A DNA stretch of 36,272 bases from Cryobacterium sp. (GCA_025465015.1 JAODMM010000094.1:1-36272); one strand, 5' to 3'; numbered from the stretch's first letter, positions 14,570 through 36,050 are shown. Numbers and translations: made by a program. The notes: generated from the letters alone by a model not told the origin.

Positions 14570-14593
14570 ATGGGGGAGGGGTACCTCCCCCAT
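14570..14593. repeat. GC-rich inverted repeat (hairpin)
   Basis: atgggggagg (14570-14579) / cctcccccat (14584-14593), 4-nt loop, immediately after the PHP stop; possible terminator. Confidence 0.6.
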
Positions 14594-14599
14594 CAGAGG

Positions 14600-14617
14600 G
14601 TCCCCCCTTAGGGGGAC
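14600..14617. repeat. GC-rich inverted repeat upstream of the Hsp70-like gene
   Basis: gtccccc (14600-14606) / gggggac (14611-14617), 4-nt loop; terminator or operator. Confidence 0.5.
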
Positions 14618-14675
14618 GGGGGTGCTACTCTTGCGAAGGTCTCCAATTAATGACGATTGCTCACCAGGGGGAATA

Positions 14676-16580
14676 ATGGCGTACGTCCTCGGCATCGACG
14701 TGGGAACCAGCTTCACGTCGGCGGCCACCGTTGCCTTGGGCGAGTCAGGACCGGGTGAACCGCAGGTGCTGGGGTTAGGGCTTCGGACCTCCGCCGTGCC
14801 TTCGGTGATCTTCTTTGGCGACGACGGGCGGGTGATGGTGGGGGAGGCGGCGGAACGCCGCGGATCCAGCCACCCGGAACGACTGGTGCGTGAGTTCAAA
14901 CGCCGAATGGGAGACCAGGTGCCGATTGTTGTCGGTGATCTGTCGGTCGCTGCGGAGGACATCCTCGCCATCATGGTGCGCTGGGTTGTGGACCGGGCCG
15001 AAGAGCGGGAAGGCCTGCCACCGGAGGTCGTTGCAGTGTCGCACCCGGCGAGTTGGGGGGACTACAAGACCAGCCTCGTGCGCCTGGCCCTGGCTGGGGT
15101 CGGTCTCGCTCAGGTCTCACTTCTGCCCGAACCGGAAGCCGCTGCGCTGCACTATGCGGCACGGGAACGCCTCGATACCGGCAGTACGATCGCCGTCTAC
15201 GACCTCGGCGGCGGAACCTTCGACATCGCGATCCTGACCAAGACCACGTCCGAATCCTTCGCGCTTCTCGGGCGACCCGAAGGCATCGAGGGGCTCGGGG
15301 GAGCCGATTTCGACGAAGCGGTTTTCGCGCACGTCACCGAGAGTATCGGCGAAGCATACGGCCGCCTCGACGTTGCAGATCCGGCGGTGCTCGTGGCCCT
15401 CGCGCGCCTGCGCCGCGAATGCACCGAGGCCAAGGAGGCACTGTCGTTCGATTCAGAGGCCTCTATCCCTGTGGTCCTTCCGGGGCTGCAGACAGAGGTG
15501 CGGCTGGTTCGTTCGGAATTCGAGGCCCTGATCGAGACGTCCGTTCGCGAGACGATCACGGCACTGGATCAGGCCCTCGAGAGAGCGGAGGTCGGCGTTG
15601 ATGAGGTTGCCGCCATCCTTCTCATCGGCGGCTCGTCCCGAGTCCCCTTGGTGGCCCAGCTGCTCTCCGCCGAGTTCGGCAGGCCCATGGCGGTCGACGT
15701 CGACCCCAAAGCCTCCGTGTCCCTGGGCGCAGCCTACTTCGCCTCCGTCACCGTCCTTGAGGCCGCCTCTGCGGGGCTCGTCGACGAGCCGGAACGGGGC
15801 GACATAGACGGGGAGCCTGCTCCCACTGTCGGGCAGGCGCATCGCCCCCATTTCGGTCCGGCTCGTGCGGCCTCGCTAGCGAGTTCGGGGAACTCTGCCG
15901 GTCACGTGGTCCGGCGGCCGATCGTGCGCACTGCCGCGGTGGCGGCCCTGGTCGCCGGAGCGATGGTCCTTGCCGGAACTGCCGCTCAGCTCTCCACCGG
16001 GCTCACATCTCTGACGTCGGACACGGGCCAGAGCGCGAGTAACCTCGACCGGTCGGTTCACGGCACGGTGGTTCCACCGACGGGCGAGCCACTCCCTGCA
16101 CTCGGAGCCGTGCCCGCTCCCGAACCCGGCTCCGGAACGGGGAACGGGAGCGGTTCACACTCGGACGACTCTGCTCCACCGTCGTCTGGTGTGCACGACC
16201 GGCGGGCTGACCCGGAACCGGCTCCGAGGTCGAATGGTGGCGCTGCCTCGCCGTCCACCCGCACACCCGCCCCCGTGGCGGCCGCAGCTCCGCCGGCCTC
16301 GACGCCCTCGACGCCAACGCCCGTCCAGACCGCCGGGCCTGGGCCCACGTCGACGCCGGACCCAGGCCCGACGACGGCCCCCACCCAGCCGCCCGTGACA
16401 GTTCCGCCGGCCGATCCTGGTCCGGCGCCGACGGATCCCACTCCAACCACCACTGACCCCGCCCCTCCCGACCCCGGAACTCCGGACCCGTCAGCGGTGG
16501 ACCCCGGGGCACCGACCGCGCCCGACGTGAGCAACCCAGGCCCTGCGCCTGCCCCTGACTCGCCCGGCGCACAGGCCTAG
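14676..16580 (+). CDS. Hsp70-family actin-like ATPase lacking an SBD, with C-terminal TM segment and Pro/Thr-rich tail
   Basis: 'YVLGIDVGTSFTSAATVAL', 'VAVSHPASWGDYK', 'IAVYDLGGGTFDIAIL', 'AAILLIGGSSRVPLVAQLL', 'SVSLGAAYFA'; TM 'TAAVAALVAGAMVLAGTAAQL'; tail about 185 aa rich in P/T/A; RBS aggggg at ATG 14676. Confidence 0.9.
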   Translation: MAYVLGIDVGTSFTSAATVALGESGPGEPQVLGLGLRTSAVPSVIFFGDDGRVMVGEAAERRGSSHPERLVREFKRRMGDQVPIVVGDLSVAAEDILAIMVRWVVDRAEEREGLPPEVVAVSHPASWGDYKTSLVRLALAGVGLAQVSLLPEPEAAALHYAARERLDTGSTIAVYDLGGGTFDIAILTKTTSESFALLGRPEGIEGLGGADFDEAVFAHVTESIGEAYGRLDVADPAVLVALARLRRECTEAKEALSFDSEASIPVVLPGLQTEVRLVRSEFEALIETSVRETITALDQALERAEVGVDEVAAILLIGGSSRVPLVAQLLSAEFGRPMAVDVDPKASVSLGAAYFASVTVLEAASAGLVDEPERGDIDGEPAPTVGQAHRPHFGPARAASLASSGNSAGHVVRRPIVRTAAVAALVAGAMVLAGTAAQLSTGLTSLTSDTGQSASNLDRSVHGTVVPPTGEPLPALGAVPAPEPGSGTGNGSGSHSDDSAPPSSGVHDRRADPEPAPRSNGGAASPSTRTPAPVAAAAPPASTPSTPTPVQTAGPGPTSTPDPGPTTAPTQPPVTVPPADPGPAPTDPTPTTTDPAPPDPGTPDPSAVDPGAPTAPDVSNPGPAPAPDSPGAQA

Positions 16581-16584
16581 AAGG

Positions 16585-19215
16585 GTGATCGAGAACCTGC
16601 AGCCGGTTGCCATGCATGCGCCCCCGCCGTCAATCCTGCATTCGGGCGCCGCGGCTTCGCTGCTGGCAGAAGTCGCCGACCTGCCTGCTTCCCCGCTGCT
16701 CACAGCGGTCGCGGGAGCGGGCGGATCGGGAAAAACCGCCATGCTGGACGATCTCGCGGCTCACTACCGGTCCCGCGGTGTCAGCGTGATTCGCGTCCAT
16801 GCGGGCTCCGACCTCGTCGCGGTGGCGGGCAGGTGCGTGCTCCTCGTCGATGACGCCAACCACCTTGGCGACCCGATCCTTGACAGGCTCCAATCGATCG
16901 TCGGTCAGCCCGATGTCGACATGGTGGTCGCGTCTCGCCCGTGGCCGCAGTCGCCCGCCCTCACCCGGCTCACGCACACTCTCGCCCTTCACCATGCCCC
17001 AGTTGCCCTCGGCGCATTGACGCGTGATGAGATCATGAACTACACGACAACTGCGCTCCGTGGTCCTGCCCCGGTCGCGCTTCTCGACCAAGTGGCAGAG
17101 CTGACGGGCGGGATGCAATGGCTCGTGCACCGGGTAGTCCAAGGACTCCGGCGCACCGGTGGCCATACTTTCGCTGCTCCTGTCATCACGCCCGCCCTGG
17201 TCAGCCGGCTCGGCACGGACCTCGACGTGATCGACCACGACGTGCGGGAACTGCTGCTGGCGATTGCCGTCGGTTTCGACATCTCCGAACGGGTGCCCCT
17301 CCGGTGGCAGGGGAGCCCGGCACGACTTGATGACCTCATGGCCGAGGCCCGAGCGGCAGGCCTCCTGCTGCCGGACGGTCGACTTGTTCCACTGATCCGG
17401 CGAGCGCTGCTGGAGACAACACCGGCGCACCAGATTCACGCGCTCCAGGTAGCCCTGGTCGACACGTTCGCTCTTGAAGGGCGGTCGATGGGCGGCGTCG
17501 CCAGGGACCTTGCGCGAAGCGGATTGAGAGATGCGCGTATCGCTCGTACTCTCGAGGATGCCGCGGATGAAGCGCTGGCCGCCCACCCTGCCCTTGCCTC
17601 CGAACTCTATGAGGAGGCCCGGGCCGCAGGCTCCGACGAACTGGCGACCGCGGCACGGCGCGCTCAGGCTGCCTCCGCACGCGGGGAGCTCGACGAGGCC
17701 GGTCGCATCGTCGACGATTTGTTGGCCCACGAGGGGGCACCTGACATTTCGAGGGGTGCGGATGTTGCCGCCGCAGTTTGGGCGAGGCGCGGCATGCTCG
17801 CGTCCGCCGCCGACGTCTACCGATGGCTGGAACCTGCGCGGACCGGATCGTCTGGCGCGCTCGCCGCGGTGGCGATGATCGGGGCGGGCGACGTGGCTGG
17901 AGCAGACGCGATGCTCGGCTCCGCTGCATCCGGCGCGTCACCCACGCTCGTGACCGTGGCCGAGAACTTGATGGCTCAGGGGATTCGCGACTCTGTCGAG
18001 AGGCATCCCACCCGTGCGATCTCTTCGCTGATCCGGGCCTCTGACATGATGACCGCTTCCGGCGTGACCACTGTGCCCCTTCCGGAGATCCCTGCCGTCC
18101 TGGCCACTCTGGTGGCCCTGCACAGCGGCGAACTCGACCTCGCGGAGTCTGTCGTGGACGCCGCCCTCCGTGGGGACCAGGGCGGTGAGGCAGCGCGACC
18201 GCGGCTGCTACTGCTGAAAGCGTGGACGGCGATGCAGAAAGACAGGCCGGAGCAGGCCAGGGCTGCACTGGTTCGCGCCGGTGAGTGCGAGAACGTCCTT
18301 GCGCCCCGGGATGAGCTTCTGTTGCACGCACTCGAGGTGGGCCTCGCTCGGCGGGCAGATGACGGTCCAGGACTCATTAAGGCCTGGAAGAAGGCCCGTG
18401 AGGGGATTCTGCACGTCTTTGTGGACCTGTTCAGCCTTCTGCCGCTGGGAGAGTTGGTGATAGCCGGCGCACGACTTCGCGACTCGGCGCGACTCGAGTC
18501 ACCGCTCGCGGAGGCGTGGGCACTGCTGGCCCGGCTGGGAGATCCGCCGCTGTGGTCGGCTCCGTTGCACTGGGCGGCGGTGCAGGCTGCAATCCTCACC
18601 GAACGCCCGGCAGACCTGGCACCCCACGCGGCGGCGCTCGTGCACGCCTCCGGGCAGAACCGTCCGGCATCGGTGTTGGCCGTTGCCGGCCGATGCTGGA
18701 TTTCGGTGCTTCGCGGAGATGTGGACGTCTCGGCTGTGGAAGCCGCTGCCCGCGGTCTGGCCTCGATAGGCCTTACCTGGGACGGCTCCCGGTTGGCAGG
18801 TCATGCCGCCGTCCGAGCTGACGACCGCAAGGACATGGCGCGCCTTCTCGCGTGTGCGCGTGATCTGCATCCGTCGGCGTCAGGAGGGTCGACAGGGTCA
18901 GCAGAGCCAGTGGGGAAAATGGTGGCCTCCAGCGGGACCGGCCTACCGCGACTGGCGACGCACGACGGCACCGCCCGGGTCATTTCCGGGACCATGTCCG
19001 ATGAGGCGGTACTGAGCGTACGAGAGCGAGAAGTGGCGCGGCTGGTCCTGGAAGGCAAGACCTACCGTGAAATCGGTGAGGCGATCTTCATCTCTCCCCG
19101 AACGGCCGAGCACCACATCGCGCGGATGCGGCGTCGGCTCGGTGTGGCAACCCGATCCGAACTGCTCACGCAGTTGCGCCTCGCGCTCGGTGAGGATGAC
19201 GCCCCCGCGCAGTGA
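16585..19215 (+). CDS. LuxR-family regulator with STAND/AAA-type ATPase domain (IniR-like by context)
   Basis: Walker A 'VAGAGGSGKTAML', Walker B 'CVLLVDDANHL', TPR-like helical middle, C-terminal HTH 'LSVREREVARLVLEGKTYREIGEAIFISPRTAEHHIARMRRRLGVATRSELL'; GTG start 4 nt after Hsp70 stop. Confidence 0.88.
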   Translation: MIENLQPVAMHAPPPSILHSGAAASLLAEVADLPASPLLTAVAGAGGSGKTAMLDDLAAHYRSRGVSVIRVHAGSDLVAVAGRCVLLVDDANHLGDPILDRLQSIVGQPDVDMVVASRPWPQSPALTRLTHTLALHHAPVALGALTRDEIMNYTTTALRGPAPVALLDQVAELTGGMQWLVHRVVQGLRRTGGHTFAAPVITPALVSRLGTDLDVIDHDVRELLLAIAVGFDISERVPLRWQGSPARLDDLMAEARAAGLLLPDGRLVPLIRRALLETTPAHQIHALQVALVDTFALEGRSMGGVARDLARSGLRDARIARTLEDAADEALAAHPALASELYEEARAAGSDELATAARRAQAASARGELDEAGRIVDDLLAHEGAPDISRGADVAAAVWARRGMLASAADVYRWLEPARTGSSGALAAVAMIGAGDVAGADAMLGSAASGASPTLVTVAENLMAQGIRDSVERHPTRAISSLIRASDMMTASGVTTVPLPEIPAVLATLVALHSGELDLAESVVDAALRGDQGGEAARPRLLLLKAWTAMQKDRPEQARAALVRAGECENVLAPRDELLLHALEVGLARRADDGPGLIKAWKKAREGILHVFVDLFSLLPLGELVIAGARLRDSARLESPLAEAWALLARLGDPPLWSAPLHWAAVQAAILTERPADLAPHAAALVHASGQNRPASVLAVAGRCWISVLRGDVDVSAVEAAARGLASIGLTWDGSRLAGHAAVRADDRKDMARLLACARDLHPSASGGSTGSAEPVGKMVASSGTGLPRLATHDGTARVISGTMSDEAVLSVREREVARLVLEGKTYREIGEAIFISPRTAEHHIARMRRRLGVATRSELLTQLRLALGEDDAPAQ

Positions 19216-19385
19216 GGACGCCCCTGGCAACGAGGTGCTTTCCGCCCTGGCAGCGAGTCCGCCGCATGCACTCGGGGCGTTCCCCGTGCCCGGGTGTCAG
19301 CGCTGCACTCACCGACCCCCCTAATGCCCCCGATCCCCACCCCCCGTAACGGCACCGACCTGTAATTCCCCAACAAGGTGTCCTG

Positions 19386-19407
19386 ATCGGGGGGACGAGT
19401 CCCCGAT
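19386..19407. promoter_or_regulatory. Inverted repeat upstream of iniB-like gene; candidate regulator site or hairpin
   Basis: atcgggg (19386-19392) / ccccgat (19401-19407); alternative inner palindrome ggggac-ga-gtcccc (19391-19404). Confidence 0.35.
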
Positions 19408-19497
19408 GTGGGGTCTGGCGCCCCCGCCGTAACTTCGTCACAAGCCAGGCAACTCCGCTCGGCGCACACCTTTTTCCACAGATTGAGGGAACGACTC

Positions 19498-20526
19498 GTG
19501 CCTACACTCACCACTCTGCTGCTCGACTTCATCATGAACCTGCTTGGCGACCCCGAGGCCGCTGACAAGTTCCGGGACGACCCGGAAAAGGCCCTCGATG
19601 AGGCGGGCCTGGGAAGCGTCTGCTCCGACGACGTCGACGCCATCCTGCCGGTTGTCCTCGACTACGCCCCGGTCCAGGCCAATTCCTCATTCGACCGTGA
19701 GTACAACACCGGCGGCAACTCCGCTTCCGTCGGCCACCAGGCGCCTCCGCCTGCTCCGGAATACCCGGCGCACCACGACGACGACGACGACCACGGTCAC
19801 GCCATCCAGCAGCTGACCCACATCGTGAACCACTACTCCTACACCTCAACGGTCGACGACCGGGACACTGTGACCGACCAGTCGGTCAACCAGAACATCT
19901 GGGCCGACGGGGACGTCATCCAGTGGTTCGACAACGACGCCATCATCGCCTCGGGCGACGGCGCAATCGCTGCCGGTGGTGACGTGGACGTCGACAACTC
20001 GCAGGACCACTCGATCCGTGCCGGGGAAGATGTCAACATCGGCAACACCGACATCGATGTCGACCTCGACAATGTCGGGAACGACAACTCGGTAAACCAC
20101 TCCAACAACACGGATGCCTCCACGAACGACTCCGGCAACGTTGAGGTGGACGACATCAACGTGGGCAACACCGACAACTCGGTGGCCGACTCGGGCAACA
20201 CCGACAACTCCGTGGCCGACTCGGGCAACACCGACAACTCCGTGACTGACTCGGGCAACACCGAGATCGACACTGACCTCGACGTCACGGTGGACGACAT
20301 CAACGTCGGCAACACGGACAACTCCGTGACCGACTCGGGTAACACCGAGATCGAGACGGGTGACATCGTTGCCGGCAACACCGTGAGCGACAACGAACTC
20401 TTCAGTGACAACGTCGTGGACTCCGGCAATGGCAACGCGATCGACTCCGGCAACGGCAACGCGATCGACTCCTTCGACGTGGAGGACAACCTGGTTGTCG
20501 TCCTCGATGAGGTCCCGGTCGAGTAA
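19498..20526 (+). CDS. iniB: IniB-like protein with N-terminal IniB domain and acidic Asx-rich repeat region
   Basis: 'MPTLTTLLLDFIMNLLGDPEAADKFRDDPEKALDEAGLGSVCSDDVDAILPVVLDYA' resembles the IniB N-terminal domain; remainder is D/N/S/V/G repeats; RBS gaggga before GTG. Confidence 0.85.
   Translation: MPTLTTLLLDFIMNLLGDPEAADKFRDDPEKALDEAGLGSVCSDDVDAILPVVLDYAPVQANSSFDREYNTGGNSASVGHQAPPPAPEYPAHHDDDDDHGHAIQQLTHIVNHYSYTSTVDDRDTVTDQSVNQNIWADGDVIQWFDNDAIIASGDGAIAAGGDVDVDNSQDHSIRAGEDVNIGNTDIDVDLDNVGNDNSVNHSNNTDASTNDSGNVEVDDINVGNTDNSVADSGNTDNSVADSGNTDNSVTDSGNTEIDTDLDVTVDDINVGNTDNSVTDSGNTEIETGDIVAGNTVSDNELFSDNVVDSGNGNAIDSGNGNAIDSFDVEDNLVVVLDEVPVE
20146..20364 (+). repeat. 30-bp tandem coding repeats (SGNTDNSVxD) within a 144-bp-spaced duplicated block
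   Basis: Units at 20161-20190, 20191-20220 and 20221-20250, plus partial at 20251; 'gtggacgacatcaacgt(g/c)ggcaacac' at 20146 and again at 20290. Confidence 0.85.
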
Positions 20527-20545
20527 CCAACATTCACAGATCCCG

Positions 20546-20587
20546 GATCGGTCCGGTAGGGAGGGCAACCTTCCTGCCGGACCGATC
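20546..20587 (+). promoter_or_regulatory. Strong hairpin with GNRA tetraloop in iniB-iniA intergenic region
   Basis: gatcggtccggtagggagg / GCAA / ccttcctgccggaccgatc: 19 bp with two G-U wobbles. Confidence 0.7.
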
Positions 20588-20624
20588 GGTGGTTAGGGTG
20601 AACCAGAACGTGAAAGAGGAAAAA

Positions 20625-22451
20625 GTGGTCGAACTCGTCAAGCTGGTGGAGCGCGGGATCGAGCTGGTCAGTGCGAGCGAACGGTCCGACCTGCGCAGGC
20701 GTCTGGAAGAAACCCGCCGCCGCCTGGTCGACAGCAGCATCCGAGTCATCGTGGTCGGGGAGTTCAAGCAAGGCAAGAGCAAGTTGATCAATGCCCTGGT
20801 GAATGCCCCCGTCTGCCCCGTCGATGATGACATCGCGACCTCAGTGCCGACAGTTGTTCGATACGGCGAAACAGCGTCGGCATTCATACTCACCAGGTCG
20901 GGGGACAGCCTTGGCGAGGGCGAGCCGATCCTCACGAGGCAGCCGGTCGAGCTCGAGGAACTCGCCGCGCATGTCTCCGAGAAGGGCAACCCCGGCAACC
21001 AGCGCCAACTCGTCGCCGCCGAAGTGTTCCTCCCGCGGAAGGTTCTCTCCGCAGGGCTGTCGATTGTCGACTCTCCGGGGGTGGGCGGCTTGGACTCCGC
21101 CCATTCGCTCACGACGCTGACGGCTCTGCCTACAGCGGATGCCATGCTCCTGGTCTCCGATGCCTCCCAGGAATACACCGAACCGGAGATCCGCTTCCTG
21201 CGCCAGGCAATGAGGATCTGCCCGAACGTGGCTTGTGTGTTGTCGAAGACCGACCTGTACCCGGCATGGCAGCAGGTGGCCGAACTGGACCGGACGCACC
21301 TCGACCAGGTCGCACCGGACATCCCCCTGTTCCCGGTCTCTTCGGACCTGCGCCTGCATGCGGCCCGCACCCAGGACAGCGAACTCAACGCCGAGTCCGG
21401 CTTTCCGGCCCTGGTCGCGTACCTTCGCACCGAGATCGTCGGGCATGCCGAGCACCTGCAGCGGAGGTCAGTGGCCCAGGACCTGCATTCGGTCACCGAG
21501 CACCTCAGTCTGTCGCTCCAGTCTGAGCTGAGCGCGCTGGAAGACCCCACCGGGACGCCGGAGATCATCGCTGAGCTTGAATCCGCGAAAGAGAAGGCAG
21601 ACGAACAGCGACGACGGTCCGCTCGCTGGCAGATCACTCTCAACGACGGCATCGGTGACCTCATCGCAGACATGGAACACGATCTACGCGACCGTATGAG
21701 AAGCATCCAGCGCGAAGCAGAACAGGCCATCGATGAGGGCGACCCGGGCCCGCTCTGGGAGCAGATGGTCGGCTGGCTGGAGCAGCGGGTAGGAGCGGCG
21801 GTTTCGGACACCTTCGTCTGGACGAACGAACGGGCGCAGTGGCTCTCCGAGCAGGTGGCTGAACACTTCAACCAAGATGAAGTGCCGCTCCCGGTGCTGC
21901 GCGTCGATGACACTGCAGACGTGCTCGACCCGGTCGAAGCTGTGCCGGCGCTGGACCCCGGGCACATCAGCATGGTGCAGAAGGTACTGATCGGGATGCG
22001 GGGGTCTTACGGCGGTGTGCTGATGTTCGGGCTTCTTACCGGCATCGTGGGGATGTCGCTGATCAACCCGTTCTCGGTTGCCGCGGGAGTCCTGATTGGC
22101 AGGAAGGTCTACAAGGACGACAAAGAGGCCCGGCTCAAGAGGCGGCAGGGTGAGGCCAAGGCGCTGGTCCGCCGGCAGATCGACGAAGTGATCTTCCAGG
22201 TGGGAAAACAGCTCAAGGACCGACTGCGGCTCGTGCAGCGGGCGACGCGGGACCACTTCACCGAGATTGCAGAGGAGCACCACCGCTCACTCGCCGACTC
22301 CGTGCGCGGTGCCCAGAAGGCCGCAGCCACGTATACGGTCGAACGCGAACAGCGCATCCGCGAGATCAAGGGCGAGCTCAAAGGAATCGAGGCGCTTCGA
22401 CGAGACGCCGTGTCCCTTCACGCACTACCGGCGCTCGCGGGGCAGGCGTGA
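20625..22451 (+). CDS. iniA: IniA-like bacterial dynamin-like GTPase
   Basis: G1 'VVGEFKQGKSKLINALVN', 'SIVDSPGVGGL', 'CVLSKTDLY', paired hydrophobic segment 'VLMFGLLTGIVGMSLINPFSVAAGVLIGRKVYKDDKEARLKRRQGEAK'. GTG 20625 has an AGAGG RBS; alternatives 20589/20598/20610. Confidence 0.88.
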   Translation: MVELVKLVERGIELVSASERSDLRRRLEETRRRLVDSSIRVIVVGEFKQGKSKLINALVNAPVCPVDDDIATSVPTVVRYGETASAFILTRSGDSLGEGEPILTRQPVELEELAAHVSEKGNPGNQRQLVAAEVFLPRKVLSAGLSIVDSPGVGGLDSAHSLTTLTALPTADAMLLVSDASQEYTEPEIRFLRQAMRICPNVACVLSKTDLYPAWQQVAELDRTHLDQVAPDIPLFPVSSDLRLHAARTQDSELNAESGFPALVAYLRTEIVGHAEHLQRRSVAQDLHSVTEHLSLSLQSELSALEDPTGTPEIIAELESAKEKADEQRRRSARWQITLNDGIGDLIADMEHDLRDRMRSIQREAEQAIDEGDPGPLWEQMVGWLEQRVGAAVSDTFVWTNERAQWLSEQVAEHFNQDEVPLPVLRVDDTADVLDPVEAVPALDPGHISMVQKVLIGMRGSYGGVLMFGLLTGIVGMSLINPFSVAAGVLIGRKVYKDDKEARLKRRQGEAKALVRRQIDEVIFQVGKQLKDRLRLVQRATRDHFTEIAEEHHRSLADSVRGAQKAAATYTVEREQRIREIKGELKGIEALRRDAVSLHALPALAGQA

Positions 22452-24157
22452 GCGCGTCCGGCGGCTGGGGAGTGGCGGAACTGCTCAGCGAGGCCGTTGA
22501 GGTCTATCGCGACGATCCTGTTGCTAAGGGCGAGCTGGAAGAGTACGCCCGCCGCCTCGACGAGCCACTCCGGGTGGCGATTGCCGGCATGGTGAAGGCG
22601 GGCAAGTCGACGCTTCTGAACGCGATCATCGGTGAGGAGATCGCCCCCACCGATGCGGGAGAGTGCACCCGCGTGGTCACCTGGTACCGCTACGGCAACA
22701 CTCCACAAATCATGCTGCATCCCCATTCCGGGCCGCCACGCTCGCTGCCCGTAAAACGTGTTGACGGCCGGCTCGTGTTCGACATGGGCGTGACCAGCGC
22801 TGATGAGGTGGACCGCCTGGTGGTGGACTGGCCGGCGAAGAGCCTCCGAACGCTCACTCTCATCGACACCCCGGGAATCGCATCCCTGTCCGGCGCCGTC
22901 TCGCAGCGCTCGACGGACTTCCTGACACCCGAGGACGCCCCTTCTGAAGCGGACGCCATCGTGTACCTCCTGCGACACCTGCACGCGTGCGACCTCACGT
23001 TCCTAGACTCATTCAGGGACACAGCGGCCGGTAAGTCCGCCAGCGTCAACGCCCTGGCGGTTCTCTCCCGGGCCGACGAGATCGGCGGAGGGCGGGTCGA
23101 CTCCCTTCTCTCCGCTCGAGACATTGCCGGACGGTATCGCCGTGATACGACGCTGCGTTCCCTCGCGCTCGGCGTCGTACCGATCGCCGGTCTCCTCGCG
23201 CAGAGTGCACGCACACTGCGCCACAGCGAGTTCACCGCCCTGGTCCAGGTCGCGGAGCTGGAACGGGATGAACGCGAACGCCTTCTCATCTCCGCGGACA
23301 GGTTCGTGCGCTCACCGCAGGTCGCCATCGATAGCGGGATGCGTAGCGCATTACTGACCCGGTACGGCCTTTTCGGGATACGGCTCGCGGCTGTACTCAT
23401 TCGCAGCGGGGTCAGGGAACCGACCCGGCTGGCTCACGAGCTTTCGCGTCGAAGCGGACTGGACGAACTGCTGGACCTCATCGCGGGGCAGTTCCAGTCA
23501 CGTGCAGAGCACCTGAAGGCGCGCACGGCGCTGGCGGGCGCCGAGAGGGTGCTTCGAATGCACCCGCGACCGGGCACGGAACGTCTCATCATGGCCGTCG
23601 AACGCATTCACTCCAGCGCGCACGAGTTCCGTGAGTTGCGGCTGCTCGCCACGGCCCGAACCACAGGCCTCGACCTTCCGTCGCAGCTTGCGGCTGAGGC
23701 TGAACGGCTCCTCGGTGGTCGTGGCATCAACCCGAGGGAACGTCTCGGGTTGGACGAGGATGCGCCCGCCGACGAGGTGCGATCTACCGCTGTGGCGTGC
23801 CTGAACAGCTGGCGGGCGCGGGCGCAGAGCCCAGTGACCAACAGGGCGGGCGCAGAGCTGTGCCTCACTTTGGTGCGCACCTGTGAGGGAATTCTGGCCC
23901 AAACCGACGTCGGGCAGCGCCAAGCAGCAGAGGCCATCGCCGATGATGAAGCAGGGGTGCAGGCCGACGATGCTGGTGCCGGGAACGGCGCCGCGGATGT
24001 CGCAACCGGCGTCGTGACTGACGCTGCCGCGGAAGTCCGCGTCGCCGACGCGGATGGCGCTAGCTCAGGGGGACGGATCAAGCCGCGGCTGGTGCTCGCC
24101 GCGGAACCAGGAACCGGTCCCGGGAACGGCACTGGATACGAGAGCCACACAGGCTGA
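22448..24157 (+). CDS. iniC: IniC-like bacterial dynamin-like GTPase with acidic/Ala-rich C-terminal tail
   Basis: G1 'AIAGMVKAGKSTLLNAIIGEEIAPTDAGECTRVVTWYRYG', 'LIDTPGIASL'; 4-bp overlap with iniA stop. Confidence 0.88.
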   Translation: MSASGGWGVAELLSEAVEVYRDDPVAKGELEEYARRLDEPLRVAIAGMVKAGKSTLLNAIIGEEIAPTDAGECTRVVTWYRYGNTPQIMLHPHSGPPRSLPVKRVDGRLVFDMGVTSADEVDRLVVDWPAKSLRTLTLIDTPGIASLSGAVSQRSTDFLTPEDAPSEADAIVYLLRHLHACDLTFLDSFRDTAAGKSASVNALAVLSRADEIGGGRVDSLLSARDIAGRYRRDTTLRSLALGVVPIAGLLAQSARTLRHSEFTALVQVAELERDERERLLISADRFVRSPQVAIDSGMRSALLTRYGLFGIRLAAVLIRSGVREPTRLAHELSRRSGLDELLDLIAGQFQSRAEHLKARTALAGAERVLRMHPRPGTERLIMAVERIHSSAHEFRELRLLATARTTGLDLPSQLAAEAERLLGGRGINPRERLGLDEDAPADEVRSTAVACLNSWRARAQSPVTNRAGAELCLTLVRTCEGILAQTDVGQRQAAEAIADDEAGVQADDAGAGNGAADVATGVVTDAAAEVRVADADGASSGGRIKPRLVLAAEPGTGPGNGTGYESHTG

Positions 24158-27410: not shown

Positions 27411-28097
27411 ATGGGATCGCACGCCGCAGACAGGCTCGCCGCTCGCCCACGCGCGAGGCCGCGTTCTTGGGTCGCGGCATCCGTTCTCGCACTCGCCCTT
27501 CTGGTCGGCTTGACCGTCGTGGTGACTCGTCGAGCATTACCGCCGGACATCGATACATGGTGGGCCGCGCTCGTCGGGGGCGTGCGGTCGCCGCTGCTCG
27601 ACGGCATTGCGCTGACCTTCAACGTGATCGGGTCCGGGCTGGTCGCCCGCGTGATCATCCCCCTGGTTGCAGTTGCCGTACTTCTTGCGCGCCGACGTGT
27701 CGCCCCCGCGCTGTACCTCATCGTGGCCACCGTCATCTCAGGGGTCGTCGTCGGCGTTCTCAAGAACATCGTTGCGCGTGACCGCCCGACCGATGGCCTC
27801 GTGGCGGTGGGATTCGGTTCCTTCCCGTCCGGCCATGCAGCGAACGCCGCCGTACTCACGGTCGCTCTCGCGTTGCTCCTCCGGCGAGGCTGGGTCTGGT
27901 GGTCCGCCCTGGCCTTGACGGTGCTCATGATGTTGAGTCGGACCTATCTGGGCGTGCATTGGCTGACCGACACTATCGGTGGGGCGCTCCTCGGTGCTGC
28001 AACAGCTGCGGGTGCCTTCGCCGCCTACGAGGTCCTCCACCGGCGGCGAATCAGCCAAGCGGCCGATTCTGCTGGAACTGATCCCCGGGGGCGATAG
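27411..28097 (+). CDS. PAP2-family phosphatase
   Basis: 'KNIVARDRPTDG', 'FPSGHAANAAVL', 'LSRTYLGVHWLTDTIGG'. Confidence 0.94.
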   Translation: MGSHAADRLAARPRARPRSWVAASVLALALLVGLTVVVTRRALPPDIDTWWAALVGGVRSPLLDGIALTFNVIGSGLVARVIIPLVAVAVLLARRRVAPALYLIVATVISGVVVGVLKNIVARDRPTDGLVAVGFGSFPSGHAANAAVLTVALALLLRRGWVWWSALALTVLMMLSRTYLGVHWLTDTIGGALLGAATAAGAFAAYEVLHRRRISQAADSAGTDPRGR

Positions 28098-28424: not shown

Positions 28425-29624
28425 ATGACCCCGGCTACCGACCCCCGCCCCGATGGTGCCGACCTCGGCGATGCCGACCTGGGCGGCAGCGCCCGCGGCG
28501 GGTCTGCTCCGATGCGGTTCTCGCCCCTCCACTCCGTGCACGTCGCCCAAGGTGCTGGCTTCACCGACTTCGCGGGCTGGCAGATGCCTGTGCGCTATAC
28601 CAGCGACCTTGCCGAGCACCACGCAGTCAGGAACACCGCCGGCTTGTTCGACCTGTCGCACATGGCCGAGATCATGGTGGACGGGGCCGACGCCGCCGTG
28701 TATCTCGACTACGCGCTCGCCGGTCGCATCTCCGGCCTCGCCCTCGGTCAGGCCAAGTACAGCCTTCTCCTCAATCCGGCTGGCGGCATCATCGACGACC
28801 TCGTCGTGTATCGTCTGGCCGAGCAAAGTTTCCTGGTCGTGGCGAATGCGGGCAACCGCTTCCAGGCCGCGGCCGCGCTTGCCCAGCGCTCAGCCCGGTT
28901 CAACGTTCAGGTCGTGGACAGAAGTGACGAGTGCGCGTTGGTCGCCGTGCAGGGGCCGCGCGCCCGGGAGATCCTGGCGACGACCGCGGGCGTCAGCGAC
29001 CTCACCACACCGCTGGATGAAGTGAAGTACTACCGCTCGACCCTCGCCACCTTCACGGGGCATCCTTTGCTCATCGCTCGCACCGGATACACCGGGGAGG
29101 ACGGGTTTGAGCTCTACATCCGGGCCGACGCGGCCGTGGCCCTCTGGGAGGCGATCGCGGAGGCGGGGGGTCCGCACGGTCTCGTGCCGGCGGGGCTCGC
29201 CAGCCGCGACACTCTGCGCCTCGAAGCGGGGATGCCGCTTTACGGCCATGAGCTGGCTCTCGACACGTTCCCGGCGCAGGCCGGCCTTGGCGGGGTGGTG
29301 GATCTGTCGAAGGAAACGGACTTCATCGGCCGTGCGGCGAGCGAGGAGGGACCGAGTGCGGATGCGCCGGTCCTCGTCGGATTGGTCTCCGCCGGGCGCC
29401 GCGCAGGCCGTGCTGGGTACGGAATCCATGCCACGCCGGAAGCGGCGGAGTCCGCCGGCGTGATCACGAGTGGCGCCTTGTCACCGACGCTGGGCCATCC
29501 GATCGCCATGGCATACGTCGCACCCGCGCTGGCACGTCCCGGAACCCAGGTCTTCATCGATGTACGGGGGAACCGCATCCCGGCCGCTGTGACGTCGCTC
29601 CCCTTTTACAAGCGCCAGAAATAG
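28425..29624 (+). CDS. gcvT: Glycine cleavage system T protein (aminomethyltransferase)
   Basis: 'FTDFAGWQMPVRYTSDLAEHHAVRNTAGLFDLSHM', 'IARTGYTGEDGFELYI', 'SRDTLRLEAGMPLYGHE'. Confidence 0.96.
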   Translation: MTPATDPRPDGADLGDADLGGSARGGSAPMRFSPLHSVHVAQGAGFTDFAGWQMPVRYTSDLAEHHAVRNTAGLFDLSHMAEIMVDGADAAVYLDYALAGRISGLALGQAKYSLLLNPAGGIIDDLVVYRLAEQSFLVVANAGNRFQAAAALAQRSARFNVQVVDRSDECALVAVQGPRAREILATTAGVSDLTTPLDEVKYYRSTLATFTGHPLLIARTGYTGEDGFELYIRADAAVALWEAIAEAGGPHGLVPAGLASRDTLRLEAGMPLYGHELALDTFPAQAGLGGVVDLSKETDFIGRAASEEGPSADAPVLVGLVSAGRRAGRAGYGIHATPEAAESAGVITSGALSPTLGHPIAMAYVAPALARPGTQVFIDVRGNRIPAAVTSLPFYKRQK

Positions 29625-29645
29625 ACACCCGTTGGAAGGAATCCC

Positions 29646-30038
29646 ATGGCAGACAGAACACAACTTCAGTACACCGCCGAGCACGAGTGGGTGTGGATCG
29701 AACCGTCGACGGGCGAGAGCGCCGGGGACGTCGCGACGGTTGGGATCACCGCCTACGCTGCCGACAAGCTGGGCGATGTCGTCTTCGTTGAACTGCCCGC
29801 GGTCGGTTCGAGCGTGGCAAGCGGCGCTATCGTCGGTGAGATCGAATCCACCAAGTCCGTCGGGGAGCTCTTTGCGCCCGTCGACGGTACCGTCGTGGAG
29901 ACGAACTCCGCCGTCGTGGACAGCCCTGAGATCGTCAACAGCGATCCGTACGGAGCAGGCTGGCTCATCAAGGTGCAGTTCACCAGCCTGCCGGCACTCC
30001 TGACCTACACCGAATACACCGCCCTCGTCGGCGAGTAG
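29646..30038 (+). CDS. gcvH: Glycine cleavage system H protein
   Basis: '[12 protein letters not shown]', '[23 protein letters not shown]', lipoyl motif '[24 protein letters not shown]'. Confidence 0.97.
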
Positions 30039-30140
30039 CGCGGCCGGAAGCGGGGCCCATCACCGGCACCGCTCCGGCATCAACTCCGCAACTCCGCAAC
30101 CCGTCAACTCCTACCAAACTTCCGGGATCAGCCACACACC

Positions 30141-33065
30141 ATGTCACAAGCCTTCACCGAGCGCCACATCGGAACCGACGCCGACGCACAGTCCCACATG
30201 CTCGCCGCCGTGGGCTACGACTCGCTAGAGTCGCTGGTCGAGGCGGCCATCCCGCCGTCGATCCACGTCGACCAGTTCCGGCGCGGCGAGGTGAGCGCCC
30301 TCCCGCCCGCGGCGACCGAGCGCGAAGCCATTACCGAACTTCGTGCGCTTGCCGCGCGCAACACGGTGAAGCGGTCGATGATCGGCCTGGGCTACTACGA
30401 CACGCTCACCCCGGCCGTCATCAAGCGGAACGTGCTCGAAAATCCCAGCTGGTACACGGCGTACACGCCATACCAGCCTGAGATTTCCCAGGGCCGGCTC
30501 GAGGCTTTGATCAACTTCCAGACCATGGTCTCCGACCTCACCGGTATGGCCACCGCGAACGCGTCGATGCTCGATGAGGGAACGGCGGTCGTTGAGGGGA
30601 TGCTGCTCGCCCGTCGAGCGTCGAAGGTCGCCTCCCGGCGGTTCATCGTCGACGCCGATGCGTTTCCGCAGACCCTGGCCCTGCTTGCCAACCGTGCCGA
30701 GGCAGTGGGAATCGACCTCGATGTGCGCCACCTCGACAATTCGACGACGGTGGACGACCTCGGCGAGCACTTCGGAATCCTCGTGCAGTATCCCGGGGCA
30801 TCCGGGCGGGTATGGAACCCGGAAACCGTTATCGCGTCCTCGAAAATGCACGGAGGCGTCGCGGTCGTCGCTGCGGACCTGCTTGCGCTGACCCTCATCA
30901 CCTCGCCGGGCGAACTCGGTGCGGACGTGGTCGTAGGCACCAGCCAGCGTTTCGGCGTTCCGATGGGATTCGGCGGACCGCACGCGGGCTACATGGCCGT
31001 GCGGAAGGGTCTCGAGCGGCAACTGCCGGGGCGCCTTGTCGGTGTCAGCGTGGACGCAACCGGGCACCCCGCCTACCGGTTGTCACTTCAGGTGCGTGAA
31101 CAGCACATCCGTCGTGACAAGGCCACCTCAAACATCTGTACCGCACAGGTGCTGCTCGCCGTGATGGCCGGCATGTACGCGGTCTACCACGGGCCCGACG
31201 GACTGCGTGCAATTGCTACCCGAGTGCAGGAATGCGCAGGCCGGCTCACGGCCGCACTGCGGGCCAGCGGCGTGGAGGTGGCGGGGGACACCTTCTTCGA
31301 CACCATCCAGGTGAGAGTGCCGGGGCGTGCCGTCGACATCATCGCCCGCGCGTGGGAGGGGGGTGTCAACCTCCGGCTGATCGACCAGGACACCGTCGGA
31401 ATCTCGGTCGACGAGACGACGACGGCTGCCGACCTGAGTGTCGTCATGGGCGCGTTCGGAGGAAGGGACTCATTCGGCATCGTCTCGTTCGAGGCGCTCG
31501 AGCACGGGATTCCTGGCGACCTCGCCCGCACCAGCGACTATCTCACCCACGCCATTTTCAACACGCACCGCTCCGAGACCAGCATGATGCGTTACCTCAA
31601 GCGACTCGCCGACTACGACTACGCCCTCGACCGCGGCATGATCCCGCTCGGTTCGTGCACGATGAAGCTCAACGCCGCCACCGAAATGGAGTCCGTCACC
31701 TGGCCTGAATTTGCGGGGATCCACCCGTTCGCCCCCCGCTCCGACGTGGAAGGCTACCTCGAGCTCATCTCGCAGCTTGAGTCATGGCTGGCGGATGTGA
31801 CGGGGTACGACTCGGTGTCTCTGCAACCGAATGCCGGCAGCCAGGGCGAACTCGCCGGGCTGCTCGCCATTCGCGGCTACCACCGGTCGCGCGGGGACTC
31901 CGCACGAACGGTCTGCCTGATTCCCTCCAGCGCCCACGGCACCAACGCGGCCTCCGCTGTTCTGGCAGGAATGCGCGTCGTCGTGGTCGCCTGCGACGAG
32001 CTGGGGAACGTCGACCTGGACGACCTGCGCGCGAAAATCGCCGCGCATGCGGATGACCTAGCCGCGCTCATGATCACCTACCCGTCCACGCATGGGGTCT
32101 ACGAGCACGAGGTCGGCTCGATCTGCCAAGCCGTACATGATGCCGGTGGGCAGGTGTACGTCGACGGTGCCAACCTCAACGCTCTTCTCGGCTTCGCCCG
32201 GTTCGGCGATTTCGGCGGCGACGTGTCGCACCTGAATTTGCACAAAACGTTCTGCATTCCCCACGGTGGTGGCGGACCCGGTGTTGGACCGGTGGCGGCC
32301 AAGGCGCACCTCGCACCGTTCCTGCCTGGGCATCCGCTGGCTCAGAGCGCCGAGCATTACCTGCGGAACGACGACGGCGTAGGGGCGGCTGGTGACCCGG
32401 TGGGGACCCGCCCGGCCGCCCACGGCGCCGGCCCGATCTCCGCAGCGCCTTATGGCAGCCCCAGCATCCTGCCGATCTCCTGGACCTACGTTCGCATGAT
32501 GGGTGCCGAGGGGCTGAAGCAGGCGACCGGCGCGGCCGTGCTGGCGGCGAACTACGTCGCCACACGACTGCGGGACTCGTTCCCCGTTCTCTACTCGGGT
32601 GATAACGGGCTCGTCGCTCATGAGTGCATCCTCGACCTTCGGCCGCTAACGGAAGCCACCGGTGTCACGGTCGACGATTTCGCAAAAAGGCTCATCGACT
32701 ACGGATTCCACGCGCCGACGATGAGCTTCCCCGTCGCCGGTACCCTCATGGTGGAGCCCACCGAGAGCGAGGACCTCGGCGAGATCGACCGGTTCATTGA
32801 CGCGATGGTCGCGATCAAGGCCGAAGCGGTCGCAGTGGCGGCGGGGGAGTGGCCGGCGACCGACAACCCGCTCCGGAACGCCCCGCACACCGCCCAGTCC
32901 GTGATCGAAGGTGAGTGGCAGCATCCCTACGACCGGGCGAAGGCCGTATACCCGGTGCCCGCCCTGGTGCGGAACAAGTACTGGCCTCCGGTGCGCCGCA
33001 TCGACCAGGCCTTCGGCGACCGCAACCTCGTCTGCGCGTGCCCGCCGCCTGAGGCCTTCGAGTAG
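30141..33065 (+). CDS. gcvP: Glycine dehydrogenase (aminomethyl-transferring), P protein
   Basis: '[25 protein letters not shown]', 'MIGLGYYDT', '[16 protein letters not shown]', PLP-Lys '[21 protein letters not shown]'. Confidence 0.97.
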
Positions 33066-34139: not shown

Positions 34140-36050
34140 ATGGCGATTGCCACGCGCAATAACCTCCGGAACGTTGCAATTGTTGCTCACGTCGACCATG
34201 GGAAGACCACCCTCGTCGACGCCATGCTCAACCAGACCAACTCGTTCGCCGAGCACTCGCATGTCGATGAGCGCGCGATGGATTCCAACGAGCTTGAGCG
34301 CGAAAAGGGCATCACCATCCTGGCCAAGAACACGGCCATCTCCTACAAGGGCGTCCACGCGACCGACGGTCCGATCACGATCAACGTGATCGACACCCCA
34401 GGTCACGCCGACTTCGGTGGAGAGGTCGAGCGCGGTCTCTCGATGGTGGACGGCGTCGTGCTCCTCGTCGACGCGAGCGAGGGCCCGCTCCCGCAGACCC
34501 GCTTCGTGCTGCGTAAGGCACTCGAGGCCAAGCACCCCGTCATCCTGCTGGTCAATAAGACCGACCGTCCCGATGCCCGGATCGACGAGGTCGTCGCCGA
34601 GAGCCAGGACCTGCTCCTCGGCCTTGCCAGTGACATGGCCGACGAGCACCCCGACCTCGACCTCGACGCGATCCTTGACGTACCGGTTGTTTATGCTTCC
34701 GGCCGTAATGGCGCGGCAAGCTGGAACAAGCCGGACAACGGTGTGCTTCCCGACAACGATGACCTCGAGCCGCTGTTCGACGCGATTCTCAAGCACATCC
34801 CCGCTCCGACCTACGACGATGAGCACCCGCTGCAGGCGCATGTCACGAACCTGGACGCCAGCCCGTTCCTCGGCCGCCTCGCGTTGCTTCGCGTCTTCAA
34901 CGGCACCATCAAGAAGGGCCAGACGGTTGCCTGGGTCAAGCATGACGGCTCCGTGCACAACGTGCGTGTGACCGAATTGCTGATCACCAAGGCGCTCGAC
35001 CGTTATCCGACCGACAGCGCAGGCCCGGGCGACATCGTCGCTGTCGCCGGTTTCGAGGACATCACCATCGGTGAAACCCTCGCGGATCCCGACGACGTGC
35101 GCCCGCTGCCGACAATCACGGTCGATCAGCCCGCCATCTCCATGACGATCGGCACCAACACCTCGCCGCTGATGGGAAAGGTCAAGGGTCACAAGCTCAC
35201 CGCGCGGATGGTCAAGGACCGTCTCGACCGAGAGCTCGTCGGTAACGTCTCGCTGAAGGTCGTCGACATCGGACGCCCCGACGCGTGGGAAGTCCAGGGC
35301 CGGGGTGAGCTTGCTCTTGCCATCCTGGTTGAGCAGATGCGCCGTGAGGGCTTCGAACTCACCGTCGGCAAGCCACAGGTTGTTGTGAAGAAGGTCGACG
35401 GCAAGGTCCACGAACCGTACGAGCACCTCACCATCGACTCGCCCGAAGAGTACCTCGGCGCCATCACGCAGCTGCTGGCCGCGCGCAAGGGTCGGATGGA
35501 GAACATGGCGAACCACGGCACCGGCTGGGTTCGGATGGAATTCATAGTTCCCTCTCGCGGCTTGATCGGCTTCCGCACCCAGTTCCTCACCGACACCCGC
35601 GGTACCGGTATCGCCAACGCCATCTTCCACGGCTACGAGCCCTGGGCCGGCACCATCACCACCCGTAACAACGGCTCGATCGTCGCCGACCGCTCGGGTG
35701 TTGTCACCCCGTTTGCGATCATCGCGCTTCAGGAAAGGATGACATTCTTCGTCAACCCGACTGAAGAGGTGTACGAAGGCATGGTCATCGGCGAGAACTC
35801 CCGTGCCGACGACATGGACGTGAACATCACCAAGGAGAAGAAGCTGACCAACATGCGTCAGTCAACCTCGGACACGTTCGAGTCGATGACGCCGTCACGT
35901 CAGCTGACGCTGGAAGAGTGCCTGGAGTTCGCCCGCGAAGACGAGTGCGTCGAGGTCACGCCGGCCATGGTGCGCATCCGCAAGGTCGAACTCGCCGCGT
36001 CAGCGCGCGCGCGCAACACCAGCCGACTGAAGAAGCAGGACGTGAGCTGA
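34140..36050 (+). CDS. typA: Translational GTPase TypA/BipA
   Basis: '[26 protein letters not shown]', '[14 protein letters not shown]', '[42 protein letters not shown]', C-terminal '[19 protein letters not shown]'. Confidence 0.97.

Follow-up and report, generated by a model that had tools for sequence, protein, structure and literature searches.

A membrane-bound Hsp70-like protein as putative partner of the IniR-type activator in an IniBAC-type module of Cryobacterium

Five genes of an Ini-type module

The window (the whole stretch of DNA analysed, 36,272 nucleotides, which lies on contig C93 of a Cryobacterium sp. draft genome of 2.54 Mb in 271 contigs) carries a module of five open reading frames, all present, running in one direction and nearly gapless, at 14676-24157 (Table 1). 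Only 4 nt separate the stop codon of the Hsp70-like gene from the first start codon of the iniR-like gene (ATG 16612 is an alternative), and iniA and iniC overlap by 4 bp (22448-22451): orientation, gap and overlap are as an earlier, sequence-only reading had described them. That reading began the module at 14570; the Hsp70-like gene probably begins at ATG 14676, which leaves 14570 intergenic. The iniB start is probably the GTG listed, a ribosome-binding site preceding it. A PolX-like PHP-domain protein is encoded just upstream of the module. Ordinary neighbours lie downstream: a PAP2 phosphatase (27411-28097), the glycine cleavage genes gcvT and gcvP (28425-33065) and TypA/BipA (34140-36050).

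Table 1. Genes and candidate control regions of the module (window coordinates)
Feature	Position	Strand	Basis and remarks
Possible promoter of the Hsp70-like/iniR pair	14602..14631	+	CCCCCCTTAGGGGG (14602-14615), -10-like TACTCT (14626-14631); weak
Hsp70-like gene	14676..16580	+	Nucleotide-binding domain, one hydrophobic segment, Pro/Ser/Thr-rich tail; PF00012, model, fold search, hydropathy
IniR-like STAND activator	16585..19215	+	P-loop NTPase, all-helical TPR-like arm and sensor, LuxR HTH; NF038181, model, Foldseek
Candidate IniR-responsive iniB promoter	19316..19435	+	Composite element conserved before iniB
iniB-like gene	19498..20526 (start approximate)	+	NF038175; repeat composition; GTG start after GAGGGAAC
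iniA-like dynamin (DynA)	20589..22451	+	Match to 6j72; GTPase motifs
iniC-like dynamin (DynC)	22448..24157	+	PF00350; positional orthologs; G1/G3 motifs

An Ini-type module had been proposed from motif and context; profile searches match the Hsp70 nucleotide-binding domain (NBD), the IniR-like protein, the IniB N-terminal domain and Dynamin_N in turn and, with the structure matches, establish homology. The regulator matches NF038181 (8e-132, 441 bits) over residues 22-867 of 876; 441 bits is less than the NCBIfam equivalog cut-off of 750, and the protein is therefore called IniR-like rather than an IniR equivalog. Its predicted structure (pLDDT 88.8) joins an NTPase to a LuxR HTH through a long stretch of helical repeats, and Foldseek matches it, with modest scores, to the STAND-TPR protein 6mfv and to MalT (8bob). 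The HTH and the sensor are the parts best conserved: identity to mycobacterial-type IniR is 58% in the HTH, 44% in the sensor/C-terminal repeat half and 23% in the NTPase. The earlier view of a STAND/LuxR gene occupying an IniR-like place holds as to kinship; the protein is not a stand-in for IniR, being itself of IniR type. According to published work, IniR is a trehalose-responsive activator of iniBAC, located upstream of the operon by ChIP (PMC5760070). The Cryobacterium genome carries a gene for an OtsA-type trehalose synthase.

The IniB N-terminal domain (NF038175, 66.7 bits against a cut-off of 40) is encoded at about 19519-19662 and is accompanied by an Asn/Asp-rich repeat region of DSGN and DNSV units; M. 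tuberculosis IniB, in contrast, is described as glycine-rich. IniA matches the M. smegmatis IniA structure 6j72 over its full length (1.3e-141, residues 16-598), with G1 (GEFKQGKS) at 57, G3 (DSPG) at 161, G4 (SKTD) at 219 and a conserved membrane-loop GRK at 504, whose Arg-Lys pair can be equated with R488/K489 of the protein shown to cut membranes (PMC6715688), the chain count being two residues off. IniC, downstream, is a second Dynamin_N protein (PF00350, 2.8e-13; G1 GMVKAGKS at 47, G3 DTPG at 140); its positional ortholog is present in 48 IniR loci and scores 640-685 bits in those of mycobacterial type. Adjacent pairs of dynamin-like genes occur in other bacteria (CjDLP1/2 of Campylobacter, for example); this pair differs in its IniA-type sequence and in its IniR, IniB and Hsp70-like neighbours.

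The Hsp70-like protein has a cytoplasmic NBD (residues about 1-367; PF00012, 1.5e-48), a single membrane segment by hydropathy (residues 416-434) and a tail of about 200 amino acids. The model exceeds a pLDDT of 90 for most of residues 1-367 and is disordered past the NBD, and its best fold matches are DnaK NBDs. The protein shares with DnaK/Hsp70 chaperones the NBD fold and the catalytic motifs, which are intact in the window and in most lineages; unlike them, it continues into a membrane helix and an outer tail where they have a substrate-binding domain. No such domain was found by profiles, model or fold search, which gave no match past residue 380, and the interdomain linker is likewise absent. 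The closest relatives are from Glaciibacter and Agreia (Microbacteriaceae). In other relatives the Pro-rich tail is replaced by PD40 or RCC1 propellers or by a lectin-like domain, and in mycobacterial-type proteins the outer part is a Ser/Thr-rich tail. In these last the ATPase motifs are gone (GIDxGT has become GLSIGS, the catalytic Lys is Val, GGGTFD is GGSGTS), despite which their genes still adjoin iniR. Motif loss beside retained adjacency would suit a protein that binds better than one that catalyses.

An operator-like element before iniB

Upstream of iniB the window has CCCCCCTAA (19316-19324), CCCCAAC (19368-19374), a core, GGGGGGACGAGTCCCCGATG (19389-19408), and a -10-like TAACTT (19430-19435) 22 nt past CCGAT. 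The general form of this element is at least one CCCCTAA box, a G-rich half, CCGAT or CCGTT and, 21-22 nt on, a -10-like TANNNT; almost every site keeps the CCGAT spacing at 21 or 22 nt. The core is present in 65 of 76 iniB upstream regions, against 0.36 expected from dinucleotide shuffles; shuffled versions of the window's own region carry it with a probability of 0.001. CCCCTAA occurs at 4.16 per kb before iniB and at 0.013 per kb elsewhere in the same loci (a difference of about 320 times), and the element is found before iniA or iniC in 0 of 97 regions. The element is probably the IniR operator, to judge from sequence conservation, and its position over the -35 region would suit a class II activator. 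Its G-rich boxes resemble the MalT box. None of the papers searched has iniBAC and CCCCTAA together, and an earlier description in the older promoter literature is possible.

Three extensions of the element were considered and rejected. 1) The possible promoter of the Hsp70-like/iniR pair holds CCCCTAA on the minus strand, which might have meant autoregulation; the box-like palindrome of the window is not conserved in sister Micrococcales. 2) Dynamin genes lying apart from iniB generally have no box of their own: four Microbacteriaceae loci have the dynamins in a separate unit, and a box, at a long distance upstream, precedes only one of the four. 3) A loose core pattern gives four other matches in the genome, which resemble chance hits, and one match in the backwards control, and does not define a genome-wide regulon.

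Some neighbouring arrangements deserve mention. Georgenia loci L010 and L011 have two tandem iniB-like genes, each preceded by a copy of the operator-like element. In L122, L123, L125 and L127, long Asn/Asp/Ser-rich repeat proteins that have no IniB domain are encoded upstream of a separate iniA; three of these four loci share a W-D-[IL]-D-A-D-x-[IL]-W-G motif, and in L122 and L125 proteins of 69-72 amino acids also precede the separate dynamins.

A near-constant companion of iniR

Loci found through relatives of the Hsp70-like protein repeat the order Hsp70-like, iniR, iniB, iniA, iniC in Glaciibacter, Agreia, Arthrobacter, Pseudarthrobacter and Georgenia. To avoid the bias of that route, 395 genomes of the class were screened with IniR as the sole criterion, which gave 36 further loci: 34, from several families, have the Hsp70-like gene, most of them with iniB, iniA and iniC. 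The two exceptions are L111, where the contig ends within the locus, and L108, which has no Hsp70-like gene. Arrangements among the 34 vary: in mycobacterial-type loci Hsp70-like-iniR is divergent from iniB*-iniB-iniA-iniC, and in a few loci the Hsp70-like gene is displaced from iniR. Among 39 genomes of the order, 7 have an IniR-like gene, and these seven, with no others, have IniA; in them the sole Hsp70 besides DnaK is the neighbour of iniR; only a few of the 32 other genomes yield an extra Hsp70-like NBD match. This clustering is far beyond chance. The sequence-only reading had regarded the membrane Hsp70-like ATPase as an addition to the Ini system: the transmembrane segment is there, and the gene is no addition, since it is part of most IniR loci, including the mycobacterial type.

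The core system is already known from mycobacteria, which switch it on upon damage to their cell wall, and the window is a variant of it from outside that group. It shares with mycobacterial IniR/iniB*-iniB-iniA-iniC (Rv0339c-Rv0343) an IniR-type STAND activator, the IniB N-terminal domain, the IniA/IniC dynamins and boxes of the same kind before iniB; it differs in its five co-directional genes and in the sub-equivalog score of its regulator. In the papers searched, the Hsp70-like gene is recorded only for M. smegmatis, where a single sentence of Boot et al. 2017 (PMC5760070) places a dnaK-like gene next to iniR. What seems new, as far as the literature was searched, is that this gene accompanies the module almost without exception across Actinomycetota, that the protein is built like a receptor and has pseudo-ATPase forms, and that the loci share an operator.

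How might the Hsp70-like protein act?

The favoured interpretation, at a probability of about 0.55, is of an IniR-IniBAC-type envelope-stress system in which the Hsp70-like protein is a membrane-bound, receptor-like partner of IniR. It is built on gene content, co-inheritance, the conserved operator-like element and domain anatomy; "receptor-like" refers to an NBD and a transmembrane helix followed by Pro-rich, propeller or lectin-like outer parts. The IniR-like STAND protein would be a ligand-gated activator that binds the repeated CCCCTAA boxes and the GGGG-N-CCGAT core over the iniB -35 region and switches on iniB-iniA-iniC; IniA and IniC would then remodel or cut the cytoplasmic membrane of this organism. 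The Hsp70-fold domain would sit in the cytoplasm next to IniR, with the variable tail reaching into the envelope, and the condition of the envelope would decide whether it keeps IniR bound or lets it go. MalK offers the parallel, as it tethers MalT to the membrane while the transporter is idle (PMC10427625). Gene coupling and anatomy would fit such a physical sequestration of IniR. The likeness to E. coli MalT with MalK, MalY and Aes extends to the NTPase, the TPR-like sensor, the LuxR HTH, several sites beside the promoter and a membrane-bound ATPase partner encoded nearby; the difference is that here the partner would be an Hsp70-fold membrane protein instead of an ABC transporter subunit, and that we infer the interaction. 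Since bacteria of this kind are not known to make mycolic acids, their ligand may be a different one. The sub-equivalog score of the regulator, the L108 exception, the displaced copies and the separate dynamin units of the four Microbacteriaceae loci also count against this interpretation.

If the Hsp70-like protein is a partner of IniR, why does its gene also lie beside dynamin pairs where there is no IniR? This, with a slightly better co-variation with the dynamins, is the strongest counter-evidence, and it makes a serious rival of the possible, somewhat less probable reading that the protein mainly anchors, loads or disassembles IniA/IniC at the membrane with IniR as no more than the controller of the operon. 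(The analogy is with Hsc70 and its action on coat proteins.) IniA/IniC-type dynamins are near the Hsp70-like gene in 28 of 43 loci that have no IniR, so that IniR cannot be the sole partner; in Paractinoplanes the two are often convergent and touching. The catalytic residues are intact in these IniR-less lineages, as they are in the window, and Hsp70-like distances correlate at r 0.82 with the dynamins and r 0.73 with IniR, figures confounded by shared ancestry. Against a purely dynamin-directed role, the tight coupling (-4 to +31 nt in 32 loci) is to iniR and not to the dynamins, mycobacterial-type copies that have lost the ATPase residues coexist with active-looking dynamins, and no box precedes the dynamin genes. 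The two roles may both be true.

The element before iniB might instead be the target of another regulator, two-component or Lsr2-like, for example. The link between IniR and the boxes is predicted from sequence, and in BCG another regulator, HpoR, is reported to occupy a separate motif of the iniBAC promoter (PMC13413693). Yet iniB is the reported IniR target by ChIP and RNA-seq (PMC5760070), and the boxes, present before iniB in IniR loci (59 of 73), are rare (2 of 45) before Hsp70-like genes of loci that have no IniR; a different regulator is improbable. Less probable still is that the protein works as a genuine chaperone, folding IniB or mending envelope proteins, a role close to one that the sequence-only reading had entertained: the strong NBD homology to DnaK and the intact motifs of the window would suit it, but there is neither a substrate-binding domain nor an interdomain linker, the tail is disordered and outside the membrane, and mycobacterial-type members are pseudo-ATPases. 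Chance adjacency of the Hsp70-like/LuxR pair to an Ini operon, which the sequence-only reading had named as its own refutation, is excluded for practical purposes by retention in 34 of 36 IniR-selected loci of several families and by the order's seven genomes with an IniR-like gene, in all of which this neighbour is the only additional Hsp70.

A broader generalization of the IniR-partner reading can be offered tentatively: across Actinomycetota a transmembrane Hsp70-fold protein, in some lineages a pseudo-ATPase, with a variable wall-facing part may gate a STAND activator and perhaps dynamins, a signalling architecture that none of the papers searched describes and of which the M. tuberculosis-type iniBAC would be a pared-down version. 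Most work on the iniBAC response to isoniazid and ethambutol has been done in mycobacteria. A near-constant putative membrane partner by iniR and a precise candidate operator make the IniR sensing step directly testable; both are present in Arthrobacter-like bacteria, which are harmless, grow easily and have no mycolic acids, and this suggests that the system predates the mycolic-acid envelope.

The Hsp70-like family itself varies considerably. The IniR locus L118 (10697-15019) encodes a 1440 aa member in which a very long linker, acidic and rich in proline, precedes the membrane segment. An apparent Hsp70-IniR gene fusion in the Arthrobacter locus L013 was discarded, as the shared frame spans a run of 36 N bases that marks an assembly gap. 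In some actinobacteria (L049, 6081-11335; L040, 1428-3485) two Hsp70-NBD membrane proteins are encoded close together, with outer parts that range from none to lectin-like. The mycobacterial-type loci L097, L099, L100, L104 and L131 have a second, degenerate Hsp70-like gene downstream of iniR with CCCCTAA boxes of its own; in L104 the operator core also precedes it, and this second gene probably belongs to the same regulon.
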